A stretch of DNA of 64,000 bases, taken from the NCBI GenBank assembly GCA_028583605.1, contig CM053329.1:620001-684000 (forward strand), in the 5' to 3' direction. Below the pieces are notes generated by a model. It ran no database searches, was not told the DNA's origin, and saw only the letters and a program-made list of their open reading frames with translations. Made by a program: the position numbers and the translations under genes. This document shows positions 184 to 54,550 of this stretch, in pieces. Source of the stretch: Dastarcus helophoroides. Its lineage: Eukaryota > Arthropoda > Insecta > Coleoptera > Bothrideridae. Every line of letters begins with the position of its first letter. Within the stretch, counting starts at the first letter, position 1.

Positions 184-339
184 ATGGCGACACCGTCTGA
201 CAGTCCAATTGAAGAAGTTGTTTTTGAGATCGAACCGTCCAGGGTTCCTAAACCGGTGCCTGTGGCCTTAGAAGACCTTTGTAGGTTAACCAAATTCACC
301 AGACAAGAAATACGAATAATGTACAGGGGCTTTAAAACG
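184..339 (+). CDS. KChIP: Kv channel-interacting protein (KChIP), N-terminal coding exon
   Basis: This exon encodes the N-terminus of a calcium-binding neuronal calcium sensor protein that, in known KChIPs, binds the cytoplasmic N-terminus of Kv4 (Shal) channels and tunes their surface expression and gating. The ATG at 184 is chosen because the frame is closed by TAA at 172-174; it has G at -3 and G at +4. The 52 codons start MATPSDSPIEEVVFE and end with the family hallmark LEDLCRLTKFTRQEI followed by MYRGFKT. This segment sits just before the first, degenerate EF hand. The exon stops after the ACG codon at 337-339 in phase 0, and GT follows at 340. The donor GTTCGT is weak (T at +3). No complete EF hand lies in this exon. 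Assignment to the KChIP family is confident; the isoform and the existence of upstream exons are unknown. Confidence 0.9.
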
Positions 340-1160: not shown

Positions 1161-1679
1161 ACAAGGAGTGCGCAGATGCAAAAATATTAATAGTTAAGAG
1201 TCTAGGTGACTCCAGTGCCATAGCAAGATATTAAATTAAAAAAAAAAAAAACAAAAGTGATACAAAAGGGGTGATATTTAATAGTATTTTTACGAATTAA
1301 ATTTAATTAACATCTTATAACCTCCAAAATATTTTTAGTTTGTTATCATTTCTAAATTATTTTCATCGAGTACAAAAAAAAAACATTATCGACATTTCTG
1401 AGCCCCTTTAAAGTATCCTGTGCGGTTGTCCTCGTTACGGTTCTAGGTTATTTAATTAAAATTGTTTGCTTTCATAGGAATAAAATTATATCACTTTTTC
1501 ATGAAAACTGCATTTGAAGATAAAATGTATTTTATTACAAAGTTCTAATTAAACTCTAGAAAAATAGAAAAAAAAATATTTTTTTAAACAAAATCCGCTC
1601 TACGATCTTTTAAAGAAATAAAGTGTTCATTACTTTCTCAGCAAAATTGTTTAAATTCAAATCTACAAATTAATAATTA
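1161..1679. other. no feature recognised
   Basis: AT-rich intronic sequence with homopolymer runs (A13 near 1236) and stop codons in every frame. I see no repeat partner for it in the window. Confidence 0.5.
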
Positions 1680-15929: not shown

Positions 15930-16131
15930 AGGGGTCGGCAACCTGCGGCCCGCGGGCCGCATGCGGTCCTTTGCAACCGTTTGCGCGGCCCTCCAAAGTA
16001 CCAATATAATTTTAGGAAAAATCAACAAGCTTAGAGCGTGAGCACTGTTTAAGTTACATTTGAATATGCAGCCCGCATAAAAAAATTATTTTGAAAATGG
16101 CCCGCCGTTCGAAGCAGGTTGCCGACCCCTG
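15930..16131. mobile_element. hAT-type miniature transposon with 8-bp target duplication
   Basis: The 202-bp element starts AGGGGTCGGCAACCTGCGGC and ends GCAGGTTGCCGACCCCTG, terminal inverted repeats of about 17 bp of the CAGGGGT-type used by hAT elements; the first C is lost on the left. GCTAAGAT is duplicated on both sides, at 15922-15929 and 16132-16139, matching the 8-bp duplication diagnostic of hAT insertion. The interior is GC-rich near the ends and codes for nothing. It would have been moved by a hAT transposase supplied in trans. Confidence 0.85.
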
Positions 16132-16954
16132 GCTAAGATGATCAATTACAATAAAAGTAAAATGAGGAAAATGACTATCATGCTAAAACTAAATGTATTG
16201 CCTAATATTCAGTGGAACATCGTCCAGTAAATTTATGAAATTATTTTTCAAACATTTCTATCTCCAGCTAGACGCTTATTAAGGTAGATGGCCTAAATTT
16301 AGACATTGTCCATAATTCAGATATTTCTGTTTATTCCACTAAAATAAGAAATTTAAAATTCTCAAAATATATGTTGAGACATCCACTGATACAATTTAAC
16401 ATTAGTTTTTTTAATCAAGATTCATTTTCTAATTTATTGACATTTTTAGTGACAAGTGATTAAGACTTGTTTGTTGTGTCTAATAGATAAGTATTTCTCA
16501 TATGATAAGTAGATTTTGACTATTTTTTTTCCTTATGGTAAGGCGCCACTAATTGATTGACCATTAATTGCTTCACTTCTGATTGATTCATCGACATATC
16601 AGATTTTGAAACAAGCTGTACTATTATTGTCCGGATTATGTGATATTGGGCTAGGTTTATTCTTCATGGTAGACCTTTATTGACCGGAAATATTATGTTT
16701 TTTTCAATTTATTTAACATTTCTTCGGCCCAGTTTGGAAATATTTAAATTTTTATGGTTTGTTGACAATTTTTTAAACAGTTTTTGAAATGCGACTACGT
16801 GATATTTAAATTTATTGAAAACGTCACTTCATGACAGTTCACAAATTAAGAGGTTAGTTTATTTTACATAGAATAAGAAAAATGAAAAATAGAAGACCAA
16901 AAATTAGATATGGAAAAAAATAAAAATTTGGTTTTTTGATAAATTAGGAAAATA

Positions 16955-17001
16955 GCACTGGACATCGATGTTTCGCTCTCATTTGAGCTCGTCAGCAGTG
17001 C
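16955..17001 (-). ncRNA. type I hammerhead ribozyme (PLE family B, left arm)
   Basis: Read on the minus strand from 17001: GCACTG (stem I), CTGACGA (conserved core), GCTC-AAATGA-GAGC (4-bp stem II with loop), GAAA (conserved core), CATCGATG (self-complementary stem III), TC, then CAGTGC (stem I partner, 6 of 6). Every invariant core position is present and cleavage would follow the GTC. Such ribozymes process transcripts of Penelope-like elements. All helices and the core are intact, so this copy could be active; stem III is short, which in related ribozymes favours activity of dimeric RNAs. Confidence 0.8.
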
Positions 17002-17564
17002 ATAACATGGAAAGAAAACAATGAGGAAGAAATACTTAAAAATAAACATTTTTTTATTTTAAATATAAAAAAAGAAAAATAAAGAAATTTTAACATGAAT
17101 AGATGTTTCATCATCAATTTACTGTGTTAAAAATTTAAATATTTGAAGCCCGATCGACAAGAAACAACTACTCCAAGGGCTAATACCCCTTCCGGCATTG
17201 AACTACACTTGTGGGTCGAACTTACATGCTCTTGGTGACTACTGTTCCTAACCGCTGAAATCTATTCAGCTGGGTAGTTAGAAGCACTCTTTATGGTAGA
17301 CCCTTATTGACCGGAAATATTATGAACAGTAGTCACCAAGAGCATATAAGTTCGACCCACAAGTGTAGTTCAATGCCAGAAGGGGTATTAGCCCTCGGAG
17401 TAGTTGTTTCTTGTGGATCGGGCTCCAAATATTTAAAATTTTAACACAGTAAATTGATGATGAAACGTCTATTCATGTTAAAATTTCTTTATTTTTCTTT
17501 TTTTATATTTAAAAAAAGAATTATTTTTAAGTATTTCTTCCTCATTGTTCCCCTTCCATGTTAT

Positions 17565-17611
17565 GCACTGCTGACGAGCTCAAATGAAAGCGAAACATCG
17601 ATGTCCAGTGC
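17565..17611 (+). ncRNA. type I hammerhead ribozyme (PLE family B, right arm, one stem II mismatch)
   Basis: The facing arm carries the same 47-nt motif on the plus strand: GCACTG, CTGACGA, a GCTC...AAGC stem II with one C-A mismatch, GAAA, CATCGATG, TC and CAGTGC. The core is intact and only the stem II base pair nearest the loop is lost. Because this ribozyme and the one at 16955-17001 are inverse copies, a transcript through both would fold back on itself and compete with ribozyme folding. Confidence 0.75.
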
Positions 17612-18116
17612 TACAACCTTTTTTTATGTATTTTTTATATTTTCGTAATTTATCAAAAAAACAAATTTTTATTTTTTTCCCTATCGAATTTTTGGTCTCC
17701 TATTTTTCATTTTTCTTATTCTATGTAAAATAAACTAACCTCTTAATTTGCGAACTGTCATGAAGTGACGTTTTCAATAAATTTAAATATCACGTAGTCG
17801 CATTTCAAAAACTGTTTAGAAAATTGTCAACAAACCATAAAAATTTAAATATTTCCAAACTGGACCGAAGAAATGTTAAATAAATTGAGAAAAAAAAATA
17901 TTGGGCTAGGTATTAAAAAATATAAATCAAAGCTTCTTATACAAAGTTTTATGGTGAAAAAAGTGGTCGCAACTCCTTAAGAAAAAGTATAAATTGAAAC
18001 AAAATTAATACTGATAAACGTCCATTTTTAAATACATTAAATAAAACATAATTTAAATCTTTAAAGGTGTCTGAATTTGGGCCATTTACCTTAAATACAT
18101 CTGGGCTAAGTAACTG

Positions 18117-18250: not shown

Positions 18251-18497
18251 AAAAATTTATATACAAATCTTGTCCCCTGAAACCAAGAAAGATTAAAAAA
18301 TACAACAAAAGTTGTTCTAACGCGTTTCAAAAGCCAAGCTATCATCTTCAGAGTATCTTAGTCTCTCTCTGAAGATGATAGCTTGGCTATCGAAACGCGT
18401 TAGAACAACCTTTGTTGTATTTTTTAATCTCTCTTGGTTTTAGGGAACAAGATTTGTATATCAGTTTTTGAAGATGACCAAGGGTCCGTTGCACCAA
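18251..18497. mobile_element. PLE family A, inverted head-to-head dimer (copy 2)
   Basis: This 247-bp insertion is flanked by a 13-bp direct repeat, AATAAAATACATA, at 18238-18250 and 18498-18510. The two arms read outward from a short centre near 18355 and match over about 95 bp: ACGCGTTTC / GAAACGCGT, TACAACAAA / TTTGTTGTA, ATACAAATCTTGTCCC and its inverse. There is no coding sequence. With copy 1 at 519-749 it shows that the palindromic dimer itself is the mobile unit. Confidence 0.75.
18369..18400 (+). ncRNA. hammerhead-type core (PLE family A)
   Basis: CTGAAGA at 18369-18375, a GATAGC-TTG-GCTATC hairpin at 18377-18391 as stem II (with one unpaired T before it) and GAAACGCG from 18392 form the core half of a hammerhead. 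GTTA follows where GTC would be cut. I cannot find a good stem I partner, so this is a recognisable but probably inactive derivative. Confidence 0.5.
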
Positions 18498-18510
18498 AAT
18501 AAAATACATA

Positions 18511-19148
18511 TTATCTTTACTCTATCAGTAAACCTTAATATTTCATAATACATGTTTATTAAACTTTTTTTCTTTACTTTTATCCTCCTAAAAGCTACTT
18601 TGAATTTTGAGATTCCTCTCTCCTCAATCACCCTGTATGTATAAAAACAGCAGAATTGGTACAAAATATAGTGGCTTGAGAAAAAATTGATTGTTTATAT
18701 AAAGAAACTTCTTAGAAATTAGTTTTCAAATCAGTAAAGGCATTTTTATAATATTTAAAACGATGCGAAATTGGCAACGGAATTGATACGTAAATGTTCC
18801 AAATAACAAATCATTAAGTATACGAAAACAATTGATACATTTATATTCCCTTCTGTCTAAAATTAGCATTTTTGTTGCAATTTTATAACTTGTAACACCC
18901 GTTTCTTAATGTGTTTACGATGGAAATACAACAATTTGATGAGTCGACAAAGGAAGCGATTAATATTATTTACGTAATACTTTTGACGTAACACTGCTAA
19001 TGTCCAAACACAGATTCGCTAATGAACTGTTTACAGAATGTTTTAGTATTTTTCCCACTCCCACCCGTATATTCACTGTTTTCTTTATACCTTACGAACA
19101 GGATAGATAGACCATATCAGTCTAGTGAACGGATATAACGAAAGTCGC
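18511..19148. other. no feature recognised
   Basis: AT-rich intronic sequence. A CACCCTGTATGTATA tip motif lies near 18629 (inverse orientation) without a partner. Confidence 0.45.
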
Positions 19149-19208
19149 GCCGTGATTGGTCGATTTCATATCCACACTAGTGTGGATATGAAATTGACCA
19201 ATCACGGC
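19149..19208. repeat. 60-bp near-perfect palindrome
   Basis: Two 30-bp arms meet at ACTAGT. Left arm GCCGTGATTGGTCGATTTCA then TATCCACACT; the right arm is its inverse with one mismatch (AATTG for AATCG). It has no loop, so it can extrude as a cruciform. It resembles two ends of a miniature transposon joined back to back. Confidence 0.85.
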
Positions 19209-19555
19209 ATGCGATAAAGACGAATGTCATTTTTAGATTCAGAATTATACCATAGAATCTGTCAAACTGACTTCGGTATTTACCAAAGAAAGTATTTAAA
19301 ATGAGTGCTTTTAGTGCAGAATCAGTAAACTTTATCCCAGCGGACATTTCTGAGGCTGCAAATGATATATTCAAGATATCATTACCTTAAAAATAAAATA
19401 GTAAATATGAATTTTGTTGCGATAAATTTATGACGTTTCATTGACACATGGACACTATATAAAATATATTAGAAACTGCAAATGTCACATGAAAAACTAT
19501 TAATTTGCTAAATCGTATTTTAGTCTGATAGATCGTATTCGTGGGAAAAATTCGC

Positions 19556-25200: not shown

Positions 25201-25387
25201 TAATCTTATGCATCCTAGATAAGATTACTCAAGTTTTACCATGTTTTTTCCTAGATCAGTTTCAGACTGACAGTTCCATGCATGTAAAGTCTTCAGTTAA
25301 ACGTTATTATCTGAAATCTAGTTGTTTATCAGGTTCAGCCCATTTAGATAAAAAGATGATAGAACGATAAAACTTGAAAGACTCAAA

Positions 25388-25476
25388 AATTGAAATACAG
25401 AACTTGTCCTCTGAAACCAAGAAAGATTAAGAAACACAACAAAGGTTGCTCAACGGGTTTCAACAGCCAGGCTGCC
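25388..25476 (-). mobile_element. PLE family A fragment
   Basis: A single arm in inverse orientation: ACTTGTCCTCTGAAACCAAG, AAAGATTAAG, ACACAACAAAGGTTG, then CAACGGGTTTCAACAGCC. It matches one arm of 18251-18497. The hammerhead stem II is broken. It abuts the 90-bp tandem units of family D directly. Confidence 0.6.
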
Positions 25477-25707
25477 AGAAGAGTTTCGCCACTGGTATTG
25501 TGGACATACTGAGTTACCGTGCTCTTCTGTCTAAACTTTCTTATCCTTTGTACCAATTTTCAATTCAGAAGAGTTTTGCCTCTGGTATGGTGGACATACT
25601 GAGTTACCGTGCTCTTCTGTCTAAACTTTCTTATCCTTTGTACCAAATTTTCAATTCAGAAGAGTTTCGCCTCTGGAATGGTGGACATACTGAGTTACCG
25701 TGCTCTG
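25477..25707 (+). repeat. tandem array of 90-91-bp units (about 2.5 copies)
   Basis: Units start at 25477, 25567 and 25658 with AGAAGAGTTTCGCC or a close variant, continue through GTGGACATACTGAGTTACCG and TGCTCTTCTGTCTAAACTTTC, and end TTTTCAATTC. The third unit diverges after GTGCTCT into PLE family D. The same GAGTTACCGTGCTCTGATG junction occurs at 54320, so the unit belongs to the family D terminal repeat. Confidence 0.85.
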
Positions 25708-25920
25708 ATGTTTTGAAATTGGCCTTTTCATTCTTTTATCTTTGCATATTCCCTTATATTTATTTTTATTTATTGTTTTTTTTCTTTGTTCCTGAAGAAG
25801 CCCCCTACGATGGTGGGCGAAACGTCGAACACTTTTAGTAGTTCTTTGAGACGGTCCAGTCCCGGAAGAAGTATATCTTGTACTGACTCTGGCCCTGGAA
25901 GCCTTCGCTATAAAATAAAT
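25708..25920 (+). mobile_element. PLE family D terminal segment (copy 1)
   Basis: This matches 54336-54550 at about 90 percent identity: GATGTTTTGAAATTGGCCTT, the CATATTCCCTTATATT block, TGATGGTGGGCGAAACGTCG-like core, AACACTTTTAGTAGTTCTTT, and CCTGGAAGCCTTCG near the end. The segment carries a hammerhead motif and no coding sequence. Confidence 0.65.
25787..25831 (+). ncRNA. hammerhead-type motif with minimal stem III (PLE family D)
   Basis: Stem I is TGTTC at 25787-25791 with GAACA at 25827-25831. Between them are CTGAAGA (core), GCCC...GGGC (stem II, 25800-25818), GAAA, CG and TC, with cleavage expected after GTC. Stem III is reduced to nothing but the CG dinucleotide, so a single copy may not fold alone, as described for very short stem III hammerheads that work as dimers. 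All invariant core bases are present. Confidence 0.6.
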
Positions 25921-33224: not shown

Positions 33225-34890
33225 AAGATAGCTCTTAAGTCTGAGAAGATATCAAAATGAAGTTTTGTCCAGTAGCATACGTCTATAGGGAGCACATTTT
33301 AAAATAATTTTCTGTAATTTATTGTACCGATCTTATACAGAGTTGATATAAACTTACTTTTTATTTTAATAGAACACCCTATATATTTTTACATATTTGG
33401 ATAGCTCTGTAAAAATGTAGAAAAATTATATCGAGTTTATGGGGATGTTGATGGGTCCTAGAGGATCATAAATGCTTAGATAGGACTCCGATACAACCAT
33501 TTGTAAACACTCACTATGATGTAGTATTAACCAATTAGCGACATAAACAATCACTGATAGTCTTTTAGTTTCCATAAATCATTAAGATGTTGTTTTATAT
33601 TTTTTAGCTATACAGAGTGATGGAGATTTGCAAATCCAAGAATTACTAAAAAACTTTAAACAGAATGACCTATCTTTATTACCTGATGTGAAAAGGAGAT
33701 AAAATTACCTGTTCAATAAAACCAATAACGTAGAATTTCTTTTGATAGGTTTCATGCAAATTAACTTTCAAATTTTTTTTTTAATTTTTAAGTTTTTGGT
33801 TAATAAAACAAGGATTTTTTGTAATTATTACTAATTAAATTTATAATTGGTATCAATAAGATTTAGATAAATTGTTAACATTCGTAAATAATAATCGAAC
33901 CTGAGCAGATATTTAACTGAGTGCCGAAAAAATTGACAATTAAAAATATGTATTTTACATGAAAACTTTCGGAAGTTGGAAGAGATATTAAAATAAAATT
34001 TTGTTTAGTAACGTACATCTATAGGAAGCACATTTTAAAATTATTTTCATTTTATTGCACTGATCATATGCAGAGTGTTGACATAAACTTGGTTTTTTAA
34101 ATAGAATACCTTGTATATTTTCGAATAGCCCTATAAAAATGCAGCAAAAAATATGGAGTTTATGGAGGTTTTGATGGGTTATTTTCCTAGTAAAGGCTCC
34201 TAAATCAGACATTTGTAAACACTCCATTAACCAATTTGCGACATAAGCAATCATTATAGTCTCAAGTTTTTAGAAACCATTGAAATGTTGCCGTATATTC
34301 TTTAGTTATACAGAGTGATCCAGGTTTACAAATCTAATAATTACTAAAAAATTTTAAATGAAAAGTTCATTTGCATGAAAACTATCAAATGTAACCCCAC
34401 ATAATGTAGTATTGTTGGAAAGCTAATATTATCTACTTTTCATATTAGGTAATAAAAATAGGCCTTTTCATTTAATTATTTTAATAATTTTTGGATTTGC
34501 AAACCTCGTTCACTCTGTATAAGTAAAAAACACAAGATAACATGTTTGTGGTTTATAGAAACTAAAAAACTATCAGTGATTGTTTTCGTTGCAAATTGGT
34601 CAATACTACATCATATTAAGTGTTTACAAATGACTGCATTAGAATCCTGTCTCCGGATTTATGATCCTCTATTAGAAAAACCATAAACCCTATATTCTTT
34701 TGTTGCATTTTTATAGGGCTATCCAAATATGGAAAAATCTGCAAGGTGTTCTATTATAAAAAAAGTATGTTTATATCAACTCTGTATATGATCGGTACAA
34801 TAAAATGAAAATAATTTTAAAATGTGCTCCCTATAGACGTACGCTACTGGGCAAAATTTCATTTTGATGTCTTCTTGTAATATTTCAAAA
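33225..34890. repeat. three copies of a ~450-bp repeat, two direct and one inverted
   Basis: Copies lie at about 33245-33720 (plus), 33984-34370 (plus) and 34440-34885 (minus). Shared blocks are TACGTCTATAGGGAGCACAT, AGAACACCCT, a TTTGTAAACACTC block, AGTTTCTA/TAGAAACT and CAGAGTGATCCAGG-like tips. The second and third form an inverted pair around a short centre. The tips resemble TATACAGGGTG, so this is probably another subfamily of that element type. Short frames inside it are not genes. Confidence 0.65.
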
Positions 34891-42018: not shown

Positions 42019-44850
42019 TCTTTAAGAATCTAAATGTTATGTGTGCATGTGTATAGGCAAAAGAAAAAACTTTTTCATTTTCCTACTAAATAACTGTAAA
42101 GAGAAAATTAACAATGTTAGAAAGTGGTGGTAAAAAGGTAGAATAGAACCTCGATTATTATCTGTGAGTTGTGCAATCACGGAGGCTTAACCTTACTCAA
42201 TTTTGGTTTTCAGTTATTCATATTTCTATATTGACATTCTGGTGACTCATTAAAATTTTCATTTTCTAATGATATAATTTAATTTTTGATTTAAGTACCC
42301 CTTTTCTTCCCCGTTGTGTTTAAATAAGATCAAACTAGTTCTAATACATTTTTGAATTATCTTTTGTAATCAAGTTGACAAGGAAGTGTTATCGAATTAA
42401 ACCAACAATTCACCTTAACGTTTTATTTTAACAATATCTCAATGCACTGATTTTTCAATTTTAATGAAATATGCAAAGAAAGTGAATTTGGTTTGTCGAA
42501 ATTCATGGGACACAAATATGAGAAAGGTATAAATTAAAAAAAAAAAGAAAATTCATTGTTAGAACTTTAACTAAAATAATCATTTTACGTTAATGACTTA
42601 TTTAGTCATTTTTCTATCAACTTCTCAAAAATCATGTTCATTATAATAATAATTGCATTGATTTGCCAGATTAGCAACTTGGTTTCTTTCAAAAGTTTTG
42701 AAACGACATTCAACAAATCAAGTGTTCCGCAATTAATTATAAGATCTGGTTAATTAACTAACTTTAGAAGTCTAGATTTTTCCTTTAATTAATCTATATG
42801 TGTTTTCGTATACATCACATAACATAGTTCCTTGATGTTCTGAATTATCGTAAGAAATTGATTTTGCAGTTGTCTTCAGTCTCTTTGAAGTCTTTTGTTT
42901 TTGTTTATTTATTCCTTTAATCAGTGGAACTCGGACCAGTATCATAACCTAGTCACTACACTTTTCTAAGGTTAATGCTTTAATTAAAGTGACTATTCCT
43001 GATCAAAAAGTGGCTAAATTGATCTTAGCCATAAAAAAACATTCAAAAAGAAACGGGAAACTGATAATACGTTCTTCATCCTTTCACCAATATACATTGT
43101 GTACTTTATGGGATGGTCCAAACTATACCAATAGATTCTAGGACGAAAATTAATGGGGAAAGTTATATACAAGGTAATTCTAAATGTAGTATCATAAATT
43201 TAGATTTGTATTTTAGAGCCCAAAATAACACGAAAAGTCTATATAAACATATGTCGTAAAACACTTCATTTGGGACTGGAAAGTTAGTTTCTAATTATAG
43301 TTTTTAATTAATAGTAGCGAAATGTGTACAGGTAATTGAAAGAAATTTGGCACAACTCCATACCCTTTAGTGCCATTTTCAAAATGTTTTTTTCTAATTT
43401 GACTTGAGGAGTTTTTATTGAAAATCTACATTACTTGCTGCGATTACACGTTAATACAAAAAACCAGTGTTTTGCAAACTATATTTTCGAAGACATCTAG
43501 AAATCATTAGTTGCACCAGTAAGTCCTGAGATTCTAGGCTACATAAATATTTCCATAATTATTTCCTAACAAAATCTGTTCCATTCATTTGTGTTTATTG
43601 GTTGTGGATTTTGATTAAATTGCGTCTATAGTACATCCGCCAAATTTGAGAAATTTTATTTTAGACAGTTATTCAAATTATAGCTTAACTTATAATAAGA
43701 ATAATAATAAAAAATGTTTACAGGTGTTAAGTTTTAACTTTAATTTATTGTTTATTAATGTTATTTAACATTTCTGCGACCCAGTTTTAAAAAATTTAGA
43801 TATCATGTAGTCATATTTCAAAACTATTGGATTTACCGCCCCCTGACATGGGTCTACATTTTATTAAAAACTTTTAAGTAATGATCATTTTATTGACAAA
43901 GAAAAAATGCTTATTAAATTCTTATTTTCATAAATTTATTCTCAAAATTGAGATATTCATGTTCATTTTGTCAGAAATGACAAATTCAAATGTAAGTATA
44001 TTGTGATAGTTTGTCATGGAAAACCTTTGTTTAAGAGACAAAATAGTGATTGCATGTCTTGCTGGTTAGAACATTACTTAGATTTTTAGAATATTTTAAA
44101 AGGAACCCTCGTCATAGTATCAATTGGACTAATACAAGTCCTAATATCCCCAAAACAAATATTAGAAAATCCTTGGACAAATCAAAATAAAATTCTTTAA
44201 ACCATGCATTGCCATTTTGTCAATTAAAGTTAGGGGGCAGTGAGTCCAGTGGTGTGTGCATATTTTTTCTAAAAAATCGCTACTAAAAATTAATAAATTT
44301 TAACTCCTCAAAATCGACGTAGAAGGTCTTGAATTTTAAGAATTCTAAAATATTTATCTCAGAAATACCTCTGATCAAGCTTTGCAATTAAAAAGAAATG
44401 TGGTCAAGGTGGCATAATATATACATTTTCTATAGGGTGACTCAGAAATAAATGTGTCACACTGTTTTTATAGATAAATATAATAATGAAATTTTTGACT
44501 CACTATTTTTTTTATAATTCGAAATTTTGTTAATAAGGTCCAAATATTGATGGGAATGTTAAAACAAGCAAACATTTAAAAAAATAAGGCACGAACCTTT
44601 CGTTTACTATTCTCTTTAGATTTCGACTTTTCTTAGATATTTCGTGTGGGTTTGTGAAATTTTGTATTTAAAAACTATTAAAATTGCAGCAAATTTCGAG
44701 TTTAAAAGTGAAAATATCGACAAAGAAATTGTATATTTTTCATAATTTTAAAGGGCCGAATAATATAAACCTCATCGCCTGCGGTTTGGGGTATCAAATA
44801 TTTCCTTCGTGTGGAATATGGACCATTCCATAACTTGTTGTAGAATATAC
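42019..44850. other. no gene; a PLE family B scrap at 43745-43830
   Basis: TTATTTAACATTTCTGCGACCCAGTT near 43758 followed by a TCATGTAGTCATATTTCAAAA block is a diverged match to the outer part of the family B arms (ATTTAACATTTCTTCGGCCC, near 16710). The rest is AT-rich with no other feature. Confidence 0.4.
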
Positions 44851-50604: not shown

Positions 50605-50812
50605 TTTATTAATTTTATTTAACATTTATTCGGCCCAGTTTGGAAATATTTAAATTTTTATTGTTTGTTGACAATATTCTAAACAGTTTTTGAATATTTA
50701 AATTTATTCAAAACGTCACCTCATGACAGTTGACAAAATAAGAGGTTAGTTTATTTTACATAGAATAGGAAAAATAAAAAATAGAAGACCAAAATTAGAC
50801 ATGAAAAAAAAA
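50605..50812 (+). mobile_element. PLE family B fragment
   Basis: ATTTAACATTTATTCGGCCC through GGTTAGTTTATTTTACATAG and AATAGAAGACCAAAATTAGA matches 16705-16915 of the left arm at about 92 percent. It stops before the ribozyme. Confidence 0.75.
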
Positions 50813-50814
50813 AT

Positions 50815-53280: not shown

Positions 53281-53350
53281 GAGTGCCCCGAGGGCGTCGT
53301 TCACGAAGATAGCTTTAAGGATATTTATTCAAAATTTTTTCCTCATGGAA
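53281..53350 (+). CDS. KChIP: KChIP internal exon (start of the EF-hand 1 region)
   Basis: This 70-nt exon begins in phase 0 after a textbook acceptor and ends one base into a codon before a perfect donor, GTAAGT at 53351. It encodes ECPEGVVHEDSFKDIYSKF plus FPHG, the helix-loop of the non-canonical first EF hand of KChIPs, where the Cys-Pro at the start of the loop prevents calcium binding. A 70-nt exon with these phases is also typical of vertebrate KCNIP genes. The next exon, expected to continue into EF hand 2, is not in the window. Together with 184-339 it gives 75 complete codons of the protein. Confidence 0.93.
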
Positions 53351-54311
53351 GTAAGTACCATTTAGATAACTTTTCTTCGTAATAAATACAGTTTTTTTTT
53401 CATTCATGTTTTTAGCGTTCTATAAATTGACACAAGTTAAAAATCACTGCAATTTGTTTTTTAACCACTCGCGTAAGTCTATACAGGTTGTAACAAATTC
53501 GCTACTCACTACAGGGATCTCGAAAACTGTCAGAGATACAGCATCGGTTAAATTAGAGCAGAGTTGCATAATTTAGCGGCCATTAATATGCCCTCGAGAA
53601 ATCGAAAATATCTCTTGCTGATCTTGAGATCTTTTGACATAAAGTAAAATTTTGGATTTTTTTTAATGTTTTTAGTGTTATTTGAAGAATGATAAAAAAC
53701 TAAAAACTCTTTTTTTGTTGTTTTCTATCCTTTACAAGATATCTTAAAACCTTTTTTTTTATTAGACATTTCACCTTCTCGCTACCATCATCAAGTGCGT
53801 TATTTTAAATACGGACCTGTAATTTTTATTGCATCTTGTGTATGTGTGGATAAAAGTTTCACTACTATAAACTATCATAAAAAAACCTTTTTTGGATTAA
53901 CCTATTTTGGTTAACCAGAATGTAATAAAATGCCACAAACGAAATGCGTTTTATTATTTATTTGTTATTCTAAACATCCATAGTTTCTTTGTCCGGCGTT
54001 ATTAGTTATTATTTTTGCTGGTCAGTTACTTATGATTGTGTCTGCTGTTCTTTTTTAAAATTTATTAGTTGTGCCATTACCTTGTTTTCTTAGATATGGA
54101 AAAATTAAAAATCGAGATAGATGGTGCAATCTATACATTTTTGCATGTACTATGTACCCGGTAAACATTTGCAGATAAAACGTTGATAGTTTTTCATATA
54201 TAGCTAAAAATTGTTTTGGCGAAAAATGATGAAAGTGCCTTGCGCTTGATGGAATACTGTTGAGACAAGATTTTCAATAATACCCTGTACCCTGGAATCT
54301 TTTACTTGACG

Positions 54312-54550
54312 ACTTACTGAGTTACCGTGCTCTGATGTTTTGAAATTGGCCTTTTCATTCTTTCATTTTTGCATATTCCCTTATATTTCCCTTTTTATTT
54401 ATTGTTTCTTTTCTTTGTTCCTAAAGAAGCCCCCTATGATGGTGGGCGAAACGTCGAACACTTTTAGTAGTTCTTTGACACGGTCTAATCCCGAAAAAGT
54501 ATATCCTGTACTTACTCTGGCCGTGGAAGCCTTCGTTATCATATTGAAGT
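54312..54550 (+). mobile_element. PLE family D terminal segment (copy 2)
   Basis: CTTACTGAGTTACCGTGCTC at 54312 starts a match to 25690-25920. The hammerhead core here reads CTAAAGA instead of CTGAAGA (54421-54427), which removes an invariant G, while stem II, GAAACGTC and GAACA are kept. This copy should be catalytically dead. Confidence 0.7.

Follow-up and report, generated by a model that had tools for sequence, protein, structure and literature searches.

In the available text of PMC3846280, Penelope-like elements (PLEs) are described as open reading frames (ORFs) flanked by pLTRs together with an adjoining inverted pLTR, with target site duplications (TSDs) of 8–10 bp and, optionally, a 31-bp tail on one inverted pLTR; self-priming was proposed there for palindromic PLE junctions. 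One PLE enzyme cleaves and extends both strands, and two internal RT start sites delimit the tail; no strand difference in start site was seen in vitro (PMC11167929). In the same work PLE hammerhead mutants still inserted, and the PLE hammerhead self-cleaved only with protein added. PLE hammerheads are minimal forms according to the accessible parts of PMC7229834 and PMC7761336, which also name PLEs as likely mobilizers of animal retrozymes on the basis of shared hammerheads, tandem copies and co-occurrence.

The window analyzed here is a 64,000-nt stretch of the Dastarcus helophoroides genome (contig CM053329.1, positions 620,001–684,000). Its plus strand carries a KChIP gene, the exon peptides of which match Kv channel-interacting protein 1 (E 2.3e-18, PDB search). 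An exon piece at 259–339 (plus strand; tblastn, sequence and PDB search) and an exon at 53,281–53,350 (plus strand; tblastn and PDB search) lie 5' and 3' of a 52.9-kb intron (340–53,280). Inside this intron sits a complete palindromic insertion of 1,241 bp (16,657–17,897), delimited by its target duplication and by arm comparison. The duplication, ATATTGGGCTAGGT, is an exact 14-bp direct repeat (16,643–16,656 and 17,898–17,911) and was scored against mismatched flanks. The arms were 90.5% identical over 589 columns (16,689–17,251 against 17,902–17,320).

The right arm was searched against the window's own 539-Mb genome, giving 44 matches with the best 40 of 2,084 first-look candidates scored; the query itself aside, family matches among these were 91–96% identical. 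The family is large, as the 2,084 first-look candidates indicate. Altogether 39 copies were examined, namely 38 in two sets plus the window copy, all of them best-scoring matches rather than a random sample. Copy L027 served to define the repeating unit, which was 695 bp long with 31% GC and held the hammerhead at positions 322–368. A unit length of 627 bp, taken from the window copy alone, was rejected: 40 nt of the unit are missing from the middle of that copy and another 26 nt next to its left stem I, and sister copies give 695 bp. ATG ORFs in a unit dimer reached at most 49 aa, and neither an RT nor a GIY-YIG ORF was found there. Direct tandem units occurred in only two of the 39 copies (L027 and L055), both running off the fetched stretch.

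Two outer 3' ends recurred in the family: a tail-less end within an A run at about position 651, and an end with the 44-nt tail at 695. The window copy has one of each. Its antisense arm (16,657–17,324, minus strand) corresponds to reference positions 41–700 of the unit plus a second tail piece, and its outer (3') end is tailed (16,657–16,697, minus strand), matching the tail end in sister copies. Within this tail, 16,661–16,697 forms a 37-nt direct repeat with the central second tail piece (17,288–17,324, minus strand), which begins an extra partial unit and beside which the 40 nt are absent. The sense arm (17,325–17,897, plus strand) covers reference positions 79–654 and terminates tail-less in the A run. 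Inner (5') arm ends in the family clustered at unit positions 581–691 and 69–88. The window also contained a truncated copy from the family comprising the 3' part without the hammerhead (50,605–50,813, minus strand; 86% over 226 columns) and a very short copy with matches on both strands (43,742–43,823).

The sequence-only reading had placed type I hammerheads in opposite arms of a palindromic element inside a KChIP intron, and all three parts of this statement were borne out. The two 47-nt motifs lie at 16,955–17,001 on the minus strand (predicted cut after C at 16,961) and at 17,565–17,611 on the plus strand (predicted cut after C at 17,605). A stringent descriptor, requiring the invariant core, at least 5 bp in stem I and at least 3 bp in each of stems II and III, matched only these two places in the 64-kb window and gave three matches when the whole window was dinucleotide-shuffled 300 times; as the motifs are copies of each other, they count as a single surprise. 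The best Rfam model was RF02275 (Hammerhead_HH9), with which core and inner stems are shared, at 40.7 bits for the left motif and 32.3 bits for the right (E-values 1.6e-8 and 7.8e-6 in a 1.6-kb search, 6.2e-7 and 3.1e-4 window-wide). A covariance-model score below threshold had been named beforehand as evidence against the ribozymes, and this was the formal outcome: both motifs fell under the HH9 gathering score of 52, and the Rfam scan at gathering score was empty. However, the E-values were significant and sister copies scored alike (36.3–40.8 bits, 17 matches in the 12 loci searched). HH9 is a conserved intronic hammerhead of amniotes, which the present motifs are not. A genome search with RF00163 gave a single match, from another family, at 32.6 bits and so under the gathering score of 34 (best 73 of 91,202 candidates scored), and two pattern scans of viral contigs returned nothing.

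Both arms have the invariant core, the three stems and the open stem I of a type I hammerhead. In the right arm one stem II pair is broken, as claimed, leaving three; this private G-to-A change was absent from the other 24 of the 25 motifs compared. The left motif, called complete in the sequence-only reading, does keep the invariant core, but 26 nt present in the right arm are gone directly after its stem I (gap at 16,953–16,956, minus strand, from the arm alignment), and the sister copies compared agree with the right arm. This loss removes AAC, possibly an outer stem I partner of GUU. Helix III can form from ACA-UCGA-UGU; it does not appear when the 47-nt motif is folded without constraints. 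The UUA/UAC next to stem I, which would bear on any loop 1–loop 2 tertiary contacts, is similar in sequence to the HH9 consensus. The 25 motifs (at most eight mismatches) came from 21 loci of the first set and of a contiguous sample (see below); 15 were identical, including the window's left motif, which thus matched 14 of the 24 others. Across 24 recent motifs, 9 of 1,128 positions differed inside the hammerhead compared with 283 of 9,091 around it, a weak signal of conservation because the surroundings are inflated by poly-A/T runs. The old copy L008 had 3/47 differences in the hammerhead, one at a core base.

Two facing hammerheads in one intronic transcript had been regarded as a less common arrangement. 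That such a pair is special to this site is not supported by the family: near-identical hammerheads occurred on both strands in 7 of the 39 copies. In a contiguous sample (the window and L002–L022, 272 kb, with L002 chosen around an earlier match) there were seven family places, five with matches on both strands.

Several other repeats were observed. The palindrome at 1,442–1,661 of L001 belongs to a different family and has its own hammerhead (1,484–1,555, minus strand; 34 bits with HH9), helix III of which is a loopless ACCGGU palindrome, like minimal PLE forms. Window positions 18,251–18,480, 553–759 and 25,383–25,473 belong to a separate inverted-repeat family, and one arm of the copy at 18,251 contains CTGAAGATGATAGC..GCTATCGAAACGCGTT, which resembles a hammerhead core. 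Another repeat, at 25,684–25,911 and 54,311–54,539, contains CTGAAGAAG..CGAAACGTCG (CTAAAGAAG in the second copy), like a degenerate PLE hammerhead. A 1.6-kb inverted repeat at 33,244–34,875 (arms 81% over 526 columns) with internal direct repeats was not matched by the hammerhead element. The fold-back element at 15,935–16,135, with GGGGTCGGCAACC ends, we take to resemble a small hAT-type element. A short palindrome at 19,146–19,211 matched the mir-1537 model at 39.1 bits, under the gathering score of 63, and is probably a chance hairpin.

Among the 39 copies, 21 were two-armed with both outer ends recognizable, and each of these had exactly one 44-nt tail (12/12 in the first set and the window; 9/9 in a second set fetched in order to test this rule). 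L030 was counted after its boundary was read by eye, and the nine include L058 and L063, which have additional small pieces at the centre. TSD scores of at least 9 were found in 20 of the 21 counted copies compared with 3/396 and 2/522 mismatched-flank controls; the sole copy under that score, L024, has flanks alike with one mismatch and a shift. The duplications of L039 and L041 are in part T runs. None of 12 one-armed or damaged copies tested reached a score of 9 (L010, L023, L033, L035, L036, L037, L042, L047, L048, L053, L057 and L059, of which L010 is outside the 39). Judged from sequence, then, the arms stand head to head with 3' ends outward, between TSDs, with one tailed and one tail-less outer end.

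Eighteen of the 39 copies were left out of this count. Read leniently, L028 (TSD not found) and L040 (TSD found) also conform to the rule; L033, L036, L047 and L053 had one end damaged; L023, L035, L037, L042, L048, L057 and L059 were one-armed; L027 and L055 were the direct tandems running off the fetched stretch; and L051, L061 and L064 were complex or running off. L033 had the tail on neither end, because one of its ends, at reference position 630, stops 21 nt short.

Ten insertions had arms overlapping enough for comparison. Arms differed by 0–0.6% in six of these (L031, L032, L039, L051, L052 and L054), by 1.6% in L049 and L064, by 2.7% in L040 and by 4.1% in the window copy. Between insertions the mean difference was 3.27% and the mean shared variant fraction 0.109 (1,105 pairs), and the window arms were no closer than unrelated copies. 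Variants shared by both arms and absent from all other loci among the 39 were found in four of the ten pairs (L032, four; L039 and L040, three each; window, one); in the remaining six, every shared variant was also present in other copies. At least some insertions therefore drew their two arms from a single source; paired arms tend to share the variants of one template, and do so in several insertions. Overlaps of at least 3 nt were present at 14 of 29 inner junctions, a modest excess over the 22–26% simulated. Hammerhead-cut RNA as the usual template was rejected, none of 76 block starts lying at reference positions 355–371 around the cut at 362/363; with about two of 76 expected if starts were uniform, and some of the 76 being alignment breaks, zero excludes only strong enrichment at the cut.

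The same genome contains autonomous PLE relics. At least 91 matches to GIY-YIG domains were found with the best 150 of 1,070 candidates scored, and a 417-aa open frame of L045 contains both RVT_1 (E 1.2e-11) and GIY-YIG (E 1.2e-6). With the 3' end of this PLE family as query, the best 40 of 1,990 candidates were all 99–100% identical over 211 bases, which suggests very recent activity of the family (e.g., L045, L046 and L065–L074). Compact two-armed PLE copies with both ends in view had exactly one tail, of about 35 nt, in six of six cases (L007, L020, L044 with its tail end read by eye, L066, L067 and L074), and a TSD was found in five of the six compared with none of 30 mismatched-flank controls at that score. 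Outside the count were L004, L005, L014, L034, L045 and L046, further L065, L070, L071, L072 and L073 (which run off the stretch), and the pair L068/L069. This last pair consists of facing PLE ends 2.9 kb apart, with a tail on both and no TSD, and may be two separate insertions. A comparison of the hammerhead family with the one PLE family sampled gave low-complexity matches only, so this PLE family need not be the partner of the hammerhead family. An Rfam hammerhead search of L044–L046 found none.

The sequence-only reading had called the element a PLE. In its insertion architecture this holds: inverted or partial-tandem pLTR-like arms, a TSD and a tail are all present. As far as the available descriptions of Penelope/Poseidon-clade PLEs go, the family resembles them in its head-to-head arms, similar-length TSDs, tail at one end, partial tandems, 5' truncation and hammerhead within the repeat. 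It differs from them in that the 695-bp unit lacks an ORF with RT and GIY-YIG endonuclease and that its hammerhead is not the minimal form but has a predicted helix III; on these grounds it is read as a non-autonomous, PLE-mobilized element rather than as a PLE. Among the copies counted the tail rule also held without exception, whereas the accessible text of PMC3846280 and PMC11167929 presents the tail of PLEs as optional. Compared with animal non-LTR retrozymes as characterized in the available part of PMC7229834, the family likewise is non-coding and low in GC, with a type I hammerhead, a short tetraloop-capped helix III, TSDs longer than 4 bp and tandem units, the last in only two of the 39 copies. 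In contrast, the unit exceeds both the ~150–450 bp expected of a retrozyme and the ~170–400 nt given in that source, and inverted pairs, not direct tandems, predominate among the examined copies.

We consider it likely that the insertion in the window is an old member of a large family of retroelements that are non-coding, bear hammerheads and are mobilized in trans by a Penelope-type reverse transcriptase/GIY-YIG endonuclease. The PLE enzyme would nick both target strands and prime reverse transcription on each, one start lying at the tail end and the other 44 nt upstream on the same RNA template. The two cDNAs would then be joined at their inner (5') ends, in part by microhomology, and paired ribozymes would be a by-product arising when both arms are long enough. 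PLE-type mobilization of this retrozyme-like element is supported by the fact that the one-tail rule holds for the hammerhead family, by its TSDs, by the variants common to both arms of an insertion, by PLE relics in the same genome whose compact two-armed copies obey the rule as well, and by the matching anatomy of PLEs (inverted pLTRs, TSD, single tail and a dual-strand enzyme). Against it stand the merely low-complexity matches to the one PLE family sampled; the two tails of L068/L069 and the tail-less L033; the direct tandems L027 and L055; the six of ten pairs without private shared variants; the 4.1% separating the window arms; and the modest size of the microhomology excess.

Other origins of the palindrome were weighed against this reading. 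In snap-back synthesis a cDNA folds onto itself and copies its own sequence into a hairpin-shaped insertion. Inner junctions often near-homologous (e.g., reference 614/609 and 511/515), the template variants common to both arms in some pairs, and the self-priming suggested for palindromic PLE junctions in the available text of PMC3846280 all speak for it; yet in L032, L052 and L060 each arm has sequence missing from the other, and since neither contains the other's range, plain fold-back copying cannot make the second arm. Outer ends, moreover, halt at the tail and no-tail sites in 21/21 copies. As the window's sense arm lies within the range of its antisense arm, the window copy alone cannot decide on this point, and with the family considered snap-back seems improbable. 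We think it similarly doubtful that the insertions go back to autonomous PLEs from which an internal deletion removed the ORF, a pLTR-ORF-pLTR structure collapsing to inverted pLTRs. Such a collapse would suit the inverted pLTR, tail and TSD and the 40 nt missing from the centre of the window copy, but dispersal of the short unit at dozens of places at 91–96% identity, its direct tandems and the lack of an ORF over 49 aa indicate that the short unit itself seems to replicate. A long inverted repeat with a flanking duplication could also point to a foldback DNA transposon or an inverted segmental duplication. Arms unequal in length and inner end, together with common one-armed truncated copies, make this origin barely credible, and the foldback transposon was rejected on its unequal ends, as outer ends differing by the 44-nt tail are not the matching termini of a DNA transposon. 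An assembly artefact was likewise rejected, as TSDs and junctions differ across many loci.

A role in the host gene was considered together with these origins. Of the two motifs, as stated beforehand, only that of the right arm has the sense orientation of KChIP; this orientation and its intact invariant core bases speak for a ribozyme that cuts the intron and thereby tunes KChIP expression. In the whole-element minimum-energy fold (predicted −816.8 kcal/mol), however, 46 of its 47 bases are paired to the upstream arm, which is made before the right-arm ribozyme in KChIP transcription. Stem I was predicted with a probability of 0.05–0.06 even for the right arm by itself, compared with 0.35–0.36 for the left arm in its own sense. 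Because of this pairing, the low stem I probability and the stem II change private to the window copy, ribozyme action on the intron is unlikely; the insertion is also one member of a large dispersed family. Cutting that tunes KChIP expression is thus a very remote prospect, and a KChIP function was rejected on the stem II lesion and the sequestration of the ribozyme in the hairpin. On the modeled folds the ribozyme is probably idle in KChIP, and a long dsRNA hairpin would be the likelier outcome in this intron. The hammerhead at the locus has no evident function and in the source element probably serves RNA processing.

The paired hammerheads are thus a real observation but not rare in their family, and the insertion rule is the more interesting result. 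In the accessible portion of the open-licence literature, no earlier report was found of facing hammerhead pairs, or of a one-tail rule that holds strictly. PLE mobilization, the favored account, may extend into a wider rule, which we offer tentatively, with belief and doubt nearly balanced. In each complete insertion that the PLE machinery of this genome makes, autonomous or parasitic, a single RNA would be copied exactly once from each of the two internal RT start sites, a different site serving each target strand; the tail would be the footprint of an obligatory asymmetry in a two-enzyme complex, and hammerhead retrozyme-like elements would spread by supplying that RNA. The mobilization of animal hammerhead retrozymes is left open in the available text of PMC7229834 and PMC7761336. 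A non-coding hammerhead family with a PLE insertion signature that includes TSDs and the one-tail rule, beside a young, multicopy autonomous PLE family of the same genome, makes the proposal of PLEs as mobilizers testable, and a strict one-tail rule, if true, constrains the mechanism of the PLE enzyme.
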